Below are positions 3,117 through 16,922 of a stretch of 64,000 nucleotides of DNA, in pieces; the stretch's first letter is position 1; every line of letters begins with the position of its first letter. The position numbers were made by a program, and so were the translations under genes. The stretch lies in assembly GCA_031292625.1 (NCBI GenBank), contig JARLGU010000015.1, forward strand, positions 62,001 through 126,000, given 5' to 3'. Under the pieces are notes generated by a model. It was given only the letters and a program-made list of their open reading frames with translations. It made no database searches and was not told the origin of the DNA. The stretch comes from Capsulimonadaceae bacterium. Its GTDB lineage: Bacteria; Armatimonadota; Armatimonadia; Armatimonadales; Capsulimonadaceae.

Positions 3117-4466
3117 ATGTTGCCTCTTAAGTTGGATTATCGCTATCTTCAACCGGAGATCAGTGCCGCATCGATTGAATCTTGGCAGGCCGAGATCGAT
3201 CTTGCGGACAGCCGGGTGACAAAAGGCACGGGGCTTGGAAGCGATTTCTTGGGCTGGGTCGATCCGTCCGCGATCGTCGCGAAGGACGAGGTTGCGCAGA
3301 TCAAGACGCTTGCGAAGCGAATACAGGACAACAGCGAGCACCTGGTCGTCGTCGGAATCGGCGGTTCGTACCTGGGCTCGAGGGCTGTTATCGAGGCCCT
3401 GGGAACGGGAGCGGGCCCCGAGGTGCATTTCGCCGGCAACTCGCTCTCGGCGCACTATCACACGAGCCTCCTGAACAAGATTTCCGGAAAGCCTTACTCG
3501 ATCAATGTGATCAGCAAGTCGGGCACGACGACCGAGCCCGCCGTTGCGTTCCGTTTGGTTCGGGCCGCGCTGGAAGCGCAGGTCGGCAAGGATGAGGCGC
3601 GCAAGCGGATTGTCGCCACGACGGACGAGAAGAAGGGCGCGTTGCGCCATTTCGCCACCCAGGAAGGCTATGACACTCTCCGCATCGCGGACAACGTCGG
3701 CGGACGCTACTCCGTGCTTTCCCCGGTCGGCTTGCTGCCGATCGCGGTTGCCGGCATCGATATCGATGCGCTGCTCGCGGGAGCGATCGACACTGCGGCG
3801 GCGACCAAGGATGCCAAGGTTTTGAGCAATCCTGCGGCGTTTTATGCGGCGGCGCGCAACCAGCTTTACCGGCAGGGCAAGGAGATTGAGATCCTGGCCT
3901 CGTTCGAGCCGCGCCTGCACTTCGTGGCCGAATGGTGGAAGCAGCTTTACGGCGAGTCGGAAGGCAAAGACAACTCCGCGCTCTTCCCGGCATCGGTGGA
4001 CTTCACGGCGGACCTTCACTCGATGGGCCAGTGGATTCAACAGGGCCGTCGCTCGATCATCGAGACATTTTTGATTGTCGATGGCGGGGAACCATCGATG
4101 ACCATTCCAGCTGGCGGCAACCTGGACGAACTGGGCTATCTGGAAGGCAAGGAACTGGCGTACGTCGGCGACGCTGCTTATCGCGGCACCGCGCTTGCGC
4201 ATCGCGACGGCGGCGTGCCGAGTATGACGATTCACCTGCCTGAGCTGTCCGCGTACAGCCTGGGCGCGCTGCTCTACTTCTACGAGCGCGCCTGCGGGAT
4301 CAGCGGCTACCTGCTGGGGGTCAACCCGTTCGACCAGCCGGGGGTCGAGGCGTACAAGAAGAATATGTTCGCGCTTCTCGGCAAGCCCGGATCGGAGAAG
4401 GCGACGACTGAAGTTAAGGCTCGCCTCGCGGCGCAAACCGGCGATACGACGGTTAAGTTCGCGTAA
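3117..4466 (+). CDS. pgi: Glucose-6-phosphate isomerase
   Basis: The 449-residue enzyme interconverts glucose-6-phosphate and fructose-6-phosphate in the cytosol. Visible family marks are GIGGSYLGSRAV and SKSGTTTEPA (sugar-phosphate binding), DNVGGRYSVLSPVGLLP (PGI signature 1) and NPFDQPGVEAYKKNMF near the C-terminus (signature 2). Length matches the roughly 450-residue Bacillus-type enzyme. The start is the ATG at 3117, because AAGAAGGAG (3101-3109) sits 7 nt upstream; an in-frame TTG at 3072 would add 15 unlikely residues. Confidence 0.96.
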   Translation: MLPLKLDYRYLQPEISAASIESWQAEIDLADSRVTKGTGLGSDFLGWVDPSAIVAKDEVAQIKTLAKRIQDNSEHLVVVGIGGSYLGSRAVIEALGTGAGPEVHFAGNSLSAHYHTSLLNKISGKPYSINVISKSGTTTEPAVAFRLVRAALEAQVGKDEARKRIVATTDEKKGALRHFATQEGYDTLRIADNVGGRYSVLSPVGLLPIAVAGIDIDALLAGAIDTAAATKDAKVLSNPAAFYAAARNQLYRQGKEIEILASFEPRLHFVAEWWKQLYGESEGKDNSALFPASVDFTADLHSMGQWIQQGRRSIIETFLIVDGGEPSMTIPAGGNLDELGYLEGKELAYVGDAAYRGTALAHRDGGVPSMTIHLPELSAYSLGALLYFYERACGISGYLLGVNPFDQPGVEAYKKNMFALLGKPGSEKATTEVKARLAAQTGDTTVKFA

Positions 4467-8631: not shown

Positions 8632-9768
8632 GTGCCTACCCAGGAAACAACCAAGCGAGTCACGCTCAAACAGGTCGCGGACCTGGCGAATGTTTCCGTG
8701 CCGGCGGCCTCGACCGTCCTTTCCGGTCTTACAAATAGCGTGCGCGTTCCAAAGCAGACGCAGGATAGGATCCGCGAAGCAGCGGAGACGCTTGGGTATC
8801 AGACGCGCTCCAGCCGATTGAAGCGCCAATCCGTCGAGGGGAGCGACGCCTCGACGGGACAAAAGCTGCTCCATGTCGGCGTCATTACGGAATACGATAC
8901 CGGGATCGCTTTCCCTTCGGCTGCGCGAAATCCTTGGGAACACGATATTTCAACTGGCATCGAACTCGCATTTGCGGGAAGCGGTCGCGCGAGGGCAAGA
9001 TTTTTCAACAGGAGAAGAGTGAACGAACGGCCGATTCCGGTCTTGGACGCGGTGTCGGCGCTTGCGAAGAACGGTGTCGATGCGCTTGTCGTGATCGACT
9101 TTGACCAGATCGAGTTCGTGTCAAACTATATCCCGGCCCTCGAAGCGTACGGACTGCCATTCGTGGTCGTTAGCGCCGGACCGCTCAGCGCTCCGGTTGC
9201 GAACGTTTGCTACGATAACCGGGCGGCAGGTTATATGGCCGCGTCGCACCTGATCGAACTGGGACATCGAGAGATCATGTTTCTCTCGACGTTTGAGGTT
9301 GACTGGGGTGCGCGGCGCGTCGAGGGCATAGTCGATGCGATGCGTGTATACGGCGTGCCCGCGTCTTGCTTCTCGATTTATCCGGCGGTTCGCAAGCCGT
9401 ACGGCGCTGCATCGGACTTTCGCGCAGTGCCGGTCCATACGCCTGCTGCGCTTGCTGCATCCAAGGCCGCAATAGATGAGGGCATCTCGGCGACCGCTGT
9501 CATTGGCGTGAACGACGAAGTCGCATTGGCATTCATGAAGACGGCAAAGGAGATTGCGCCGGGGGATCGCCGGTACGCAGTCGTCGGATTTGACGATATT
9601 CCCGAAGCGCGGTTTCAGAGCCTGACAACGTTTCGAGCGCCAAGGGAGGCGATGGGCCGCGAAGCAGCTTCGCTTGCTTTGCAGTTGTGTGGCGATCCGG
9701 GTGCGCGAAAGCAGATTTGTTTACAATCAGATCTGATGATTCGATCCTCGACAGTCGAGTTTGTATGA
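8632..9768 (+). CDS. LacI-family transcriptional regulator
   Basis: The 378-residue protein has an N-terminal LacI helix-turn-helix ([18 protein letters not shown]) with the hinge-helix region after it, then a type I periplasmic-binding-fold sensor domain. The sensor segment [19 protein letters not shown] and the effector-side [10 protein letters not shown] and [12 protein letters not shown] are typical. A TTG at 8593 is in frame but lies upstream of the promoter -10 box, so the GTG at 8632 is preferred and gives the usual short N-terminus. The gene is 13 nt from a prepilin-like gene and in the same unit as a large secreted glycosidase. It probably senses a sugar released by that enzyme and controls its own operon. 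Confidence 0.92.
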
Positions 9769-9781
9769 TATGGAGGTAGCT

Positions 9782-10654
9782 ATGAATAGTCGAAAGAGAG
9801 TCCGCTGTAGCGGATTTACTTTAATTGAACTCCTCGTTGTTATTGCGATCATCGCGATATTGGCCGCAATTCTATTTCCCGTGTTCGCAACCGCGCGCGA
9901 GAAGGCGCGGCAGACGTCGTGCGCTTCAAACATGAAGCAACTTGGAACGGCCGTTATCCAGTACGTTCAGGATTATGACGAGCATTTGCCGAGCGGAACC
10001 AGCCCGAGCAACGGATATAACGGGACCAATCCAGCTGGCGTCGGTTGGGCAGGGCAGATATACCCGTACATCAAGAGCAAAGCTGCCTTTACGTGTCCAA
10101 GCGACACAACGCAGGCGCCAAACATCTCTTACTCCATGAACTACCTGCCCGTCGGCGGCACCCTGCCGCCAGCTTCTGGATCCTATGTGATCGGAGGCGC
10201 TGGCGCTTATTCATCACTCACGGCTGCGTCTCAAACAGTTATGTTTTGTGAAGTAGCTGGAGAGACATCGATCGATCCGTCAGCGGATACGGCGTCACCG
10301 TTTTCACCAACGACTAACGGACTAACAATTCTCGCTGGCGTATCGCCGGCTGGGCTCTTGGACACGGGATGGGCTGCAGGATTTTCGTCTTCCAGTGGCA
10401 CTGCACACTTCAAATCCCAGTATGGACGTCACTCAATGGCCTCGAACTATACGGCGATGGACGGTCACGTCAAATGGCTGCCTGGATCGAAAGTGAGCGC
10501 AGGGTACTATTCATCGGCAGGTGCCGTAGGGTTACCGTCTCCGTGGAATAACGTCAGCTCTGTAGGGGCCATGGCGGAGTGTCCGGAAGCGAACTCTTTT
10601 CCTGGCTGCGATGTTGCGACCTCGCCCGTATCGTTGACGTACAGCCCTATATAA
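9782..10654 (+). CDS. DUF1559 prepilin-like protein with H-X9-DG motif
   Basis: The 290-residue protein starts at the ATG at 9782, preceded by GGAGGT (9772-9777). A type IV prepilin leader is present ([19 protein letters not shown]), with cleavage expected after the glycine before FTLIE. Next come [16 protein letters not shown] and [20 protein letters not shown], characteristic of the DUF1559 family. Near the C-terminus [12 protein letters not shown] matches H-X9-DG exactly. The family is abundant in Planctomycetes and Armatimonadota; its function is poorly known and may involve a pilus-like or secretion-related fibre. It sits between a sugar regulator and a secreted glycosidase, and an equivalent gene at 46996-47913 has the same neighbours. 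Confidence 0.92.
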
Positions 10655-13823: not shown

Positions 13824-16820
13824 TTATTCGTGGACGCACGTCCTGACGATTTCGCGGCAGACCGATCCGGCGGCGTCGCGTCCGTGCCCGCCGTTTTCGA
13901 CGATGCACGCGAATGCTACAGACGGGTGAGATGCCGGCGCAAACCCTGCAAACCAGGAATGCGGGCGTCCCGATGCAAGCTGAGCGCTGCCCGTCTTACC
14001 GGCGACGTCTACGCCCAGGCCATCGAATACCCCGCGTGCCGTGCCGCTAGCGACGACTCTTCGCATCATCGAGCGCAACACCGCCGCGTTCGCCTCCGTA
14101 AGCGGCTGCGTTGCGGGGAGATCCATCGGGCTTTCCCGAACGAAGCGGCTTGGAGGCATCGATCCGCCGTTCGCGATGGCTTCTGCGATGCGCGCCATTT
14201 CGTAAGGCGTCGCCAGGATGGTTCCCTGCCCGTAGCCGCAATCGGGCAGATCTTCCGCGAGCTTGCCAACGGAAGGACAGTGGTTCAACTGAAACGCCCC
14301 AATCTCGCGGTCGAGAATGTTTGGCCCGAGTTCGACGGCCAATGCTGCGTAATACACGTTGCATGAGACGCTGAGAGCCTTTGCGAGATCTTCGACGCCA
14401 TGCGGGCGCATTTCCGATTCATCGGTGACAGTGGCGCGCGAGTAATGGTTGCCATTGTAGCTCCAGAGAATGTTGTGCGCCGTATGGCGGCAATCGAGCG
14501 TGAAGTCGCCGCGATGGGATTCGAGAGCGGCGGCGGCCGTGACGAGCTTGAACGTCGAGCCGGGCGGGTAGACTCCCGAGAAGGCGCGGTTCATGAGCGG
14601 GTTCGCCGGATCGCCGCCTTCATGCAGCGCGTTCCAATCTGCTTTTGAGATGCGTTCAGGATCGAAGGTCGGCGTTGTCGCGGCCGCCAAAAGATCGCCA
14701 GTGCGCGCATCGATGACAACGGCAGCGCCACGCCCGCTGCCAGCTTTGCGCGCTGCCCGATCCAAGGCCGTCTGTGTCGCCTGCTGAATGTCGATGTCGA
14801 TGGTTAGGTGCACGTCGCTGCCGGACAGATGTTTGCGATCTGGCAAGTCTTTGCCCCGGTACATCGTCAACAAGGCTGCGCTGTTGCCAAGTCCGCTCAG
14901 TTCTCCATCGCATCCAAGCGGGTTCGACGGCGAGCCCGGCAGTTCGGCCGCCAGAAGTATGTTGGCTGCGGCGCGGCCGTATGGATAGACGCGCGGCCGT
15001 CCGGCAAGGATCCTCGTTCCCTGCTCATTCGCCAACGGCTCGCGCGCGAGGACGCGGCCCCGGCGGTCGAGGATGCGGCCGCGCGGCGTCTCGTTGATCA
15101 ACGCGAGCAGGCGAGGGTTGATGTGGGGCCGCCGTACGCCGTCAGCATCCGGGATTGTAAGCGTCCGGCTGGCCAGAGCCTCGTCCGCAATGCCCTGAAT
15201 GTAGACCAGCCGGCCCCCAATTATGAGCAGCAGCGCGGTGCAGAGGCCAGTGATAACGGCCCGCGACGCGGCGGGGTAGACGCTTGGCAGCGCTTGGGGG
15301 ACATCGTCCGGCAGTCGTTTCGCGGATATTCGCAGCAGAAGCCCGAGCGAGAAGAAATCCGCCGCAAGCGACGATGTGCCATAAGAAACGAACGGAAGCG
15401 TGACGCCGGTCAGCGGCGCGACTCCCGTGGAACCCGCTGTGATGACGATTGCCTGGATGCCGATCAGCGTCGTGAGGCCCGCAGCGAGTAGCCTGTCGAA
15501 ATCGTCGGCGGCGTTGCGCGCAATCCGATAGCCTCGATGGACGATGACGGCGTACGCGACCAGGACGGTAAGCGTTGCCAGCACGCCGCCTTCTTCGCCA
15601 ATGGTTGTAAACACCATGTCTGATCCGGAGCGCGGCACCGCTGCCGGATCGCCTAATCCAAGACCAGTGCCGAATAGGCCGCCGGTAGCCAGCCCCCACA
15701 GTCCCATGGCAAGCTGACCGCCCAGCCGTTGCGCGTTATCCCATGGGTGCAGCCACATGTCGACGCGAGTCGCAAAAAAGCCCAGGTGTGCGTAGTAGCC
15801 AGCGACGCCGGCAAGCAGGATCAGCGCGGCTGCGGCAACCGGATAGAACGCGCGCCCGGTCACCAAGTAGACGACGGCAACGAGCGTTGCGTACAGAAGC
15901 ACCGCGGGCCCCATATCCTTGACTACGGCGAAGAGGAGGAGGACAAAGAGGTAGAGCAAAGCCAGCGGAACGATGTCAACCAGTTCAGGCCAACGTCCGC
16001 CAACGGTCCCCGCGCCGATATGCGACGTGCGCCGTTCAGCAAGGTAGGCGGCCATAAAGAGGACAAGAAGTATTTTGATCGCCTCAATCGGTTCAAATCC
16101 AAGCGCGGTTACCTTCGCGCCGCCGGGGCCGTGTCCAAGCGGGCTCATCAAGACGATCATCAAACCCAGCGCTGCGATTGCGTAAGCGAATCCATACCTG
16201 TGGAGGCGTAGGCGCGAGAAGGCAGGCAGGAAGGGAAGGGCGGCCGCAATTATTCCCACAATGACGACGCCGCGTGTTTGAGTCAGGAATGACATCGCGT
16301 CGCGCAATGGATCCTTGACCGAATAGATGGCAATCAACCCGATGCCGCTCAAGAATATCGCCAACGGCAATAAGTACGGGTCCGCGTCCGGCGCTTTCCG
16401 CGTGAGGAGTAAATGCCCGAACCATGCGGCAGCGAGGAAGAGCAGGGAGCACGTCAGGGCGGCGCGGCTACTATCCTCAGGCGTGTGGACTACGAGAGCG
16501 GACGATGCGGGACGATTGGCGGGATCGACTGCGGACAGAATAGGATCACGCTGGGCGCTGTATACGCTGGTGAACTTGCCGCCAGGGAGGGCATGGCGGC
16601 GTTCAATCACCGTGGCCGCCTTTTCGACCGGGATACGATACGCGGCGGCGATCTGGTTCACGGAGGCCGCGTTCAGGTTGATCGTGGAGGACGTAATCGG
16701 CGCCGTAATCTCGGGAAGCTTCTTTGCGCCGTAGACAAGCGCAAAGCCAAGGGCTAGAACAGCGGATACAAGGGTAAGCAATAGGCGTTCGACATAGCGT
16801 CGATTCCGGCTTCGTCGCAT
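13824..16820 (-). CDS. SEDS glycosyltransferase / class B PBP transpeptidase fusion with HhH insert
   Basis: One 998-residue protein combines both halves of a peptidoglycan synthase that are usually separate (RodA/FtsW plus PBP2/FtsI). TM1 is at about 12-31. An external segment at 47-97 resembles a ComEA-like helix-hairpin-helix (INLNAASVNQIAAAYRIP, then GGKFTSV). The polytopic SEDS domain runs from about 147 to 520, with catalytic aspartate D401 in SDMVFTTIGEEGG and the late STGVAPLTGVTLPFVSYGTS motif. A further TM at about 530-550 leads to the transpeptidase domain, with STFK (S755), SCN (S819) and KTG (K942). All key residues for polymerisation and cross-linking are present. The ATG at 16820 is chosen over one 21 codons upstream because it starts MRRSRNRRYV just before the first membrane segment. 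Confidence 0.93.
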   Translation of the reverse strand: MRRSRNRRYVERLLLTLVSAVLALGFALVYGAKKLPEITAPITSSTINLNAASVNQIAAAYRIPVEKAATVIERRHALPGGKFTSVYSAQRDPILSAVDPANRPASSALVVHTPEDSSRAALTCSLLFLAAAWFGHLLLTRKAPDADPYLLPLAIFLSGIGLIAIYSVKDPLRDAMSFLTQTRGVVIVGIIAAALPFLPAFSRLRLHRYGFAYAIAALGLMIVLMSPLGHGPGGAKVTALGFEPIEAIKILLVLFMAAYLAERRTSHIGAGTVGGRWPELVDIVPLALLYLFVLLLFAVVKDMGPAVLLYATLVAVVYLVTGRAFYPVAAAALILLAGVAGYYAHLGFFATRVDMWLHPWDNAQRLGGQLAMGLWGLATGGLFGTGLGLGDPAAVPRSGSDMVFTTIGEEGGVLATLTVLVAYAVIVHRGYRIARNAADDFDRLLAAGLTTLIGIQAIVITAGSTGVAPLTGVTLPFVSYGTSSLAADFFSLGLLLRISAKRLPDDVPQALPSVYPAASRAVITGLCTALLLIIGGRLVYIQGIADEALASRTLTIPDADGVRRPHINPRLLALINETPRGRILDRRGRVLAREPLANEQGTRILAGRPRVYPYGRAAANILLAAELPGSPSNPLGCDGELSGLGNSAALLTMYRGKDLPDRKHLSGSDVHLTIDIDIQQATQTALDRAARKAGSGRGAAVVIDARTGDLLAAATTPTFDPERISKADWNALHEGGDPANPLMNRAFSGVYPPGSTFKLVTAAAALESHRGDFTLDCRHTAHNILWSYNGNHYSRATVTDESEMRPHGVEDLAKALSVSCNVYYAALAVELGPNILDREIGAFQLNHCPSVGKLAEDLPDCGYGQGTILATPYEMARIAEAIANGGSMPPSRFVRESPMDLPATQPLTEANAAVLRSMMRRVVASGTARGVFDGLGVDVAGKTGSAQLASGRPHSWFAGFAPASHPSVAFACIVENGGHGRDAAGSVCREIVRTCVHE

Positions 16821-16922
16821 GGGTGTGAGGATTATACCTCCTGCATGCGCGCCCTGAAGGAGCGCCGTTGAGCAGCCTGCCACGCCCTCGTTCGGCGTTC
16901 TAGCCCATAATGTTAGTCACGG

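Follow-up and report, generated by a model that had tools for sequence, protein, structure and literature searches.

A single gene of Capsulimonadaceae DNA (13824–16820 of the window, i.e., of the whole stretch of 64,000 nucleotides which was analysed) encodes in one chain a SEDS polymerase and a class B penicillin-binding protein (PBP), which are usually two partner proteins. The product is probably a fused synthase of the RodA-PbpA type, additional to FtsW/FtsI and RodA/PBP2, whose external helix-hairpin-helix (HhH) domain would most likely be a docking or regulatory surface and not a DNA-binding module. The fusion, its active-site residues, the fold, the clade and the synteny in relatives were computed here. 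That polymerase and cross-linker occur naturally in one chain argues strongly for a SEDS protein working in fixed pairing with this class B PBP; the fusion also provides a ready-made single-gene target for work on structure and activity. In Armatimonadota and Acidobacteriota, phyla whose growth machinery, to our knowledge, has hardly been studied, the conserved HhH domain on the outside suggests that wall synthesis receives an input not yet described.

Architecture and active sites

Coordinates of the features are collected in Table 1. The open reading frame ends with the stop codon at 13824–13826; an alternative in-frame GTG start is possible at 16883. Two complete Pfam domains were found in the protein, SEDS (PF01098, E 5e-51, 174 bits versus a cut-off of 26.4) and transpeptidase (PF00905, E 1e-47, 163 bits versus a cut-off of 22.1); the GT51 domain (PF00912) was absent from its Pfam matches with E values of up to 1. 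The best NCBIfam models were PBP2 (MrdA) and FtsW, each scoring under its own cut-off. The AlphaFold2 model of the whole protein, for which the input alignment contained 54 sequences, had a mean pLDDT of 90.5 and a pTM of 0.85. Thirteen transmembrane (TM) segments fit the model helices and the hydropathy, namely two extra helices, ten of SEDS and one of the PBP. The N-terminus (MRRSRNRRYVER) is positively charged and is therefore placed inside; with this orientation, the TM1–TM2 loop and the transpeptidase would both be located outside. The initial annotation had put the HhH domain outside, provided that the N-terminus is inside, and both the charge and the helix layout agree with this predicted topology.

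Residue D401, which belongs to the TM7–TM8 loop, aligns with the catalytic D255 of Thermus thermophilus RodA; the RodA chains 6bas and 6pl6 have alanine in this column. All eight catalytic positions which were checked are invariant in the aligned fusions (54/54), including S755–K758 (SxxK), S819–N821 (SCN) and K942-T943-G944 (KTG). Pfam domains and motifs are thus in accordance with the first description of the chain as SEDS and class B PBP with D401, STFK, SCN and KTG, and the fusion is predicted from its sequence to be enzymatically active.

Table 1. Features of the fused gene and its product in the window
Feature	Position	Strand	Details
Whole gene: SEDS-class B PBP fusion, probably of RodA-PbpA type, with HhH domain on the outside	13824..16820	(-)	998 aa, ATG start
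TM1, residues 13-33	16722..16784	(-)	hydropathy; model helix 3-33
External ComEA/GspK-like HhH domain, residues ~46-110, short strand at each end	16491..16685	(-)	profiles, models, superposition
TM2, residues 114-142, additional helix preceding SEDS core	16395..16481	(-)	model, hydropathy
Glycosyltransferase core (SEDS) with ten TM helices, residues 150-500	15321..16373	(-)	PF01098, model helices
Catalytic Asp401 codon (= T. thermophilus RodA D255)	15618..15620	(-)	alignment; invariant 54/54
PBP-half TM, residues 514-544, links inside end of SEDS to outside PBP	15189..15281	(-)	model, hydropathy
Probable short pedestal of PbpA type, residues 568-680 (RGRILDRRG...RVYPYG)	14781..15119	(-)	PF21922/PF03717 in relatives; PbpA structural match
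Transpeptidase domain, residues 698-992	13845..14729	(-)	PF00905
STFK active-site motif, Ser755 to Lys758	14547..14558	(-)	invariant 54/54

Distribution and type of the fused synthase

Homologues were searched in 61 genomes, the source genome and 60 of the same phylum. The same fusion was present as one open reading frame in many of them, the strongest matches being 33–49% identical over most of the length. A scan of named genomes recovered it from Capsulimonas, Chthonomonas and other Armatimonadota, and also from Acidobacteriota (Bryobacterales and relatives); single-frame fusions were seen in dozens of genomes of the two phyla, and the three-part arrangement noticed in the window extends across both. 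A mis-joining of two genes in the assembly, which the initial annotation had borne in mind, is practically ruled out, since the same layout, with intact motifs, occurs in many independent assemblies, in proteins 32–48% identical to that of the window.

Some occurrences are of interest in themselves. A fused SEDS reading frame of 955 aa (L125, G054:C30) lies outside the main fusion clade and possibly represents an independent second fusion event. A contig labelled Nostoc sp. CHAB 5824 (L039) carries a Chthonomonadaceae-like fusion, probably due to contamination of the cyanobacterial assembly, and MAGs bearing the names Rhodothermaceae and Opitutaceae (L076, L088) contain fusions of the acidobacterial type, which could stem from transfer or mis-binning.

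In the tree, the fused SEDS parts of both phyla were united in a single clade (SH-aLRT 98), which clustered neither with the FtsW nor with the RodA of the phylum, and the separate SEDS genes of the source genome (L001, L002) grouped with the other unfused SEDS sequences of the phylum. Family searches in the source genome yielded a SEDS gene near a PBP_dimer-type PBP gene (FtsW/FtsI-like) on contig 28, a RodA-like SEDS on contig 41 and, on contig 6, a PBP2-like protein with a full PBP_dimer domain, adjoining a class A PBP. Separate RodA and PBP2 genes, for which a look elsewhere in the genome had been advised, are therefore present, and the original reading of the fusion as a joined RodA-PBP2 or FtsW-FtsI pair had to be given up; the fusion constitutes a third SEDS-PBP system. 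Its candidacy as the sole elongation synthase is ruled out by the same separate FtsW, RodA, PBP2-like and FtsI-like genes.

The nature of this third system is indicated by structure and by synteny. When the whole model was submitted to Foldseek, the top ten rows consisted of nine chains of Mycobacterium tuberculosis PbpA and one Eggerthella PBP, and the PBP half could be aligned structurally with M. tuberculosis PbpA over its full length. Next to their fusions, an armatimonadote (L087) and acidobacteria (L064, L065) have genes for FhaA/FHA proteins, PP2C and a Ser/Thr kinase. Another genome of the phylum (G049) possesses the order FhaA-FHA-PP2C-SEDS-PbpA, in which SEDS and PBP are two unfused genes that abut at 3914; this is likely the precursor layout of the fusion. 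The homologous locus of actinobacteria is pstP-rodA-pbpA-pkn-fha (PMC6554272). The fusion was assigned to the RodA-PbpA type because it stands apart from FtsW and RodA, has these FhaA/FHA-PP2C-kinase neighbours in relatives and contains a PbpA-like PBP half. A plain elongasome fusion of RodA and PBP2, performing MreB-directed elongation, would be compatible with the presence of MreB and with the NCBIfam ranking, in which MrdA/PBP2 comes first for the PBP half; it is judged distinctly improbable, in view of a separate RodA-like SEDS and a PBP2 with full PBP_dimer, of a fused SEDS outside their clade, of the reduced pedestal, of PbpA as the structural match and of the FHA/PP2C/kinase synteny in relatives.

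At the window locus itself, neighbouring FHA, PP2C and kinase genes are absent; the fused gene stands alone among non-wall genes. FhaA is encoded elsewhere on the same contig, at a distance of about 69 kb, and the data suggest that the wall-phosphorylation module persists in the source genome, though scattered. The fusion may be regulated by this Ser/Thr-phosphorylation module (FhaA, PP2C, kinase). The gene for the FhaA-like FHA protein (G000:C41:146147-149105; L149:4148-7106) is immediately adjacent to murJ, which encodes the lipid II flippase. An open reading frame starting with a type IV prepilin-like N-terminus was noted at 9761–10654 of the window, and a similar one near FhaA (L149:2716-3558).

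The external HhH domain

With the window protein alone, the Pfam model HHH_3 remained below threshold (E 0.15, 12.6 bits versus a cut-off of 27); 13 of the 15 aligned family members matched it with E values no higher than 0.5, the best being 9.7e-9, and the two others have almost no TM1–TM2 loop. A profile of eight loops matched EEPD1 (4e-17), GspK (1e-7) and ComEA (9e-6) in the PDB. The loop modelled alone (pLDDT 88.8) could be superposed on GspK with a Z of 8.2 and an rmsd of 1.7 Å over 55 residues, and on ComEA with a Z of 7.7; among small helical domains, a VIA-align Z of about 8 is no more than average, and it carries weight here since the top rows, GspK, ComEA and Tex, are all HhH proteins. 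Foldseek with the HhH domain alone gave no match at E < 0.001 (best 0.16, GspK), and the fold assignment rests therefore on the profile search and the Z-scores. The comparison with ComEA which had been proposed thus confirmed an HhH fold between TM1 and TM2; its extent had to be corrected from residues 47–97 to about 46–110.

The HhH domain is kept in most fusions. Between the acidobacterial and armatimonadotal loop profiles a moderate match was obtained (hhalign E 7.5e-6, probability 84%), the former being more divergent, and seven armatimonadotal loops were 20–29% identical to the window loop. A few armatimonadotal fusions, with a loop of 16–22 aa, are without the domain, which is therefore not needed in all; in one sub-clade (L045:58-105, L046:5974-6021, L048, L050, L052, L055) it was lost, with a loop of 16 aa and SEDS and PBP retained, and this sub-clade would be a natural control for HhH function. 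Some fusions of Chthonomonadales have an external loop of about 150 aa (L037:5845-6285, L035:5794-6264), which matched the HhH part of the profile twice, apparently by tandem duplication.

The initial annotation had pointed out that HhH modules usually bind DNA. Canonical HhH hairpins carry Gly-hydrophobic-Gly, and GspK is a minor pseudopilin. ComEA cannot bind DNA without a conserved lysine, K164 or its equivalent (PMC9747964); its placement within the HhH motif is our reading of the alignment. Counts for these motifs covered 18 armatimonadotal HhH domains. Both hairpin glycines were found together in one of them, the window protein having Arg-Ile-Pro at this site, and the lysine equivalent likewise in one, which is the window protein itself. 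Net charges of the loop are around zero in these domains and +2 in the window loop. Since neither Gly-h-Gly nor the DNA-contact lysine is conserved and the closest fold is that of GspK, DNA binding appears unlikely as the conserved role; the domain may instead be an external docking or regulatory surface. A true nucleic acid-binding domain of the ComEA kind, which would tether extracellular DNA or couple wall synthesis to DNA uptake, could draw on the family profile matching ComEA and EEPD1, on ComEA as second by Z, and on the lysine and positive loop of the window protein; it is considered very improbable because of the motif counts, the neutral charges and GspK as closest fold, and competence genes were not recognised beside the fusion in the loci examined.

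It had also been suggested that the domain may take the place of the PBP pedestal as an activation surface. The PBP_dimer match of the window protein is weak (17 residues, E 0.34); at E up to 0.5, relatives matched PF03717 in 14 of 15 cases and the PbpA dimerisation domain PF21922 in 9 of 15, and the whole length of the PBP half corresponds to PbpA. A short pedestal of the PbpA type thus appears to be retained, and its replacement by the HhH domain is not supported; the domain may nevertheless act as an activation surface.

A domain which by topology is on the outer face near both active sites, and which most of the clade holds, could conceivably bind peptidoglycan or lipid II, sensing the wall or acting as a processivity clamp instead of docking proteins. 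We know of no HhH domain which binds glycans, and the loop sequences vary strongly (see the identities above), which a lineage-specific partner would explain better than an invariant ligand; this role is thus regarded as unlikely. Perhaps, and tentatively, the two-phylum clade has its own external regulator, in which a repurposed GspK/ComEA-type HhH domain would receive an activating signal or partner, as an internal counterpart of MreC or FtsQLB.

Proposed working and comparison with known systems

The SEDS half would polymerise lipid II on the outer side of the membrane, and the glycan strand would then be cross-linked by the transpeptidase to which SEDS is covalently joined; because of this attachment, it is proposed that polymerase and cross-linker are always present 1:1 and unable to act apart. 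The outward HhH-fold domain, carried by the loop which connects the two extra helices, would most likely serve as a docking or regulatory surface for a protein partner. The fusion would work beside FtsW/FtsI and RodA/PBP2, within the Ser/Thr-phosphorylation wall module.

Natural SEDS-PBP fusions in single reading frames have been mentioned already (PMC10449877, Nat Commun 2023, citing the Rhodococcus RHA1 genome), and synthetic RodA-PBP2 fusions are functional (PMC6207328; PMC10449877). For SEDS proteins with an HhH domain, no report was found in the open-access literature. The SEDS-PBP fusion itself is therefore known; the HhH domain is more surprising, and the combination appears to be new.

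FtsW-FtsI and RodA-PBP2 share with the fusion the catalytic logic and the active-site residues, but are encoded by separate genes elsewhere in the source genome, and the fused SEDS belongs to another clade. In the engineered RodA-GGGS-PBP2 of Escherichia coli (PMC6207328), the SEDS C-terminus is likewise joined to the PBP N-terminus, and such a chain can work; it differs in being artificial, with canonical RodA and PBP2, a full pedestal and neither extra TM helices nor HhH. The natural fusions of PMC10449877 also have SEDS and PBP in one reading frame; an HhH domain is unreported for them, whereas the fusion described here forms a two-phylum clade. The minor pseudopilin GspK/XcpX and ComEA possess the HhH fold and act outside the cytoplasmic membrane; in contrast to both, the HhH domain of the fusion is a loop of a polytopic enzyme, and the family is without the DNA-binding signature of ComEA. 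The actinobacterial pstP-rodA-pbpA-pknA/B-fhaA/B system resembles the fusion in its SEDS and PbpA-type class B PBP, PbpA being the best structural match, and in the FHA, PP2C and kinase neighbours of the fusion's relatives. RodA and PbpA are two genes there, whereas the fusion is one chain, has a first external loop which holds a large HhH domain and, in the source genome, is detached from such a locus.
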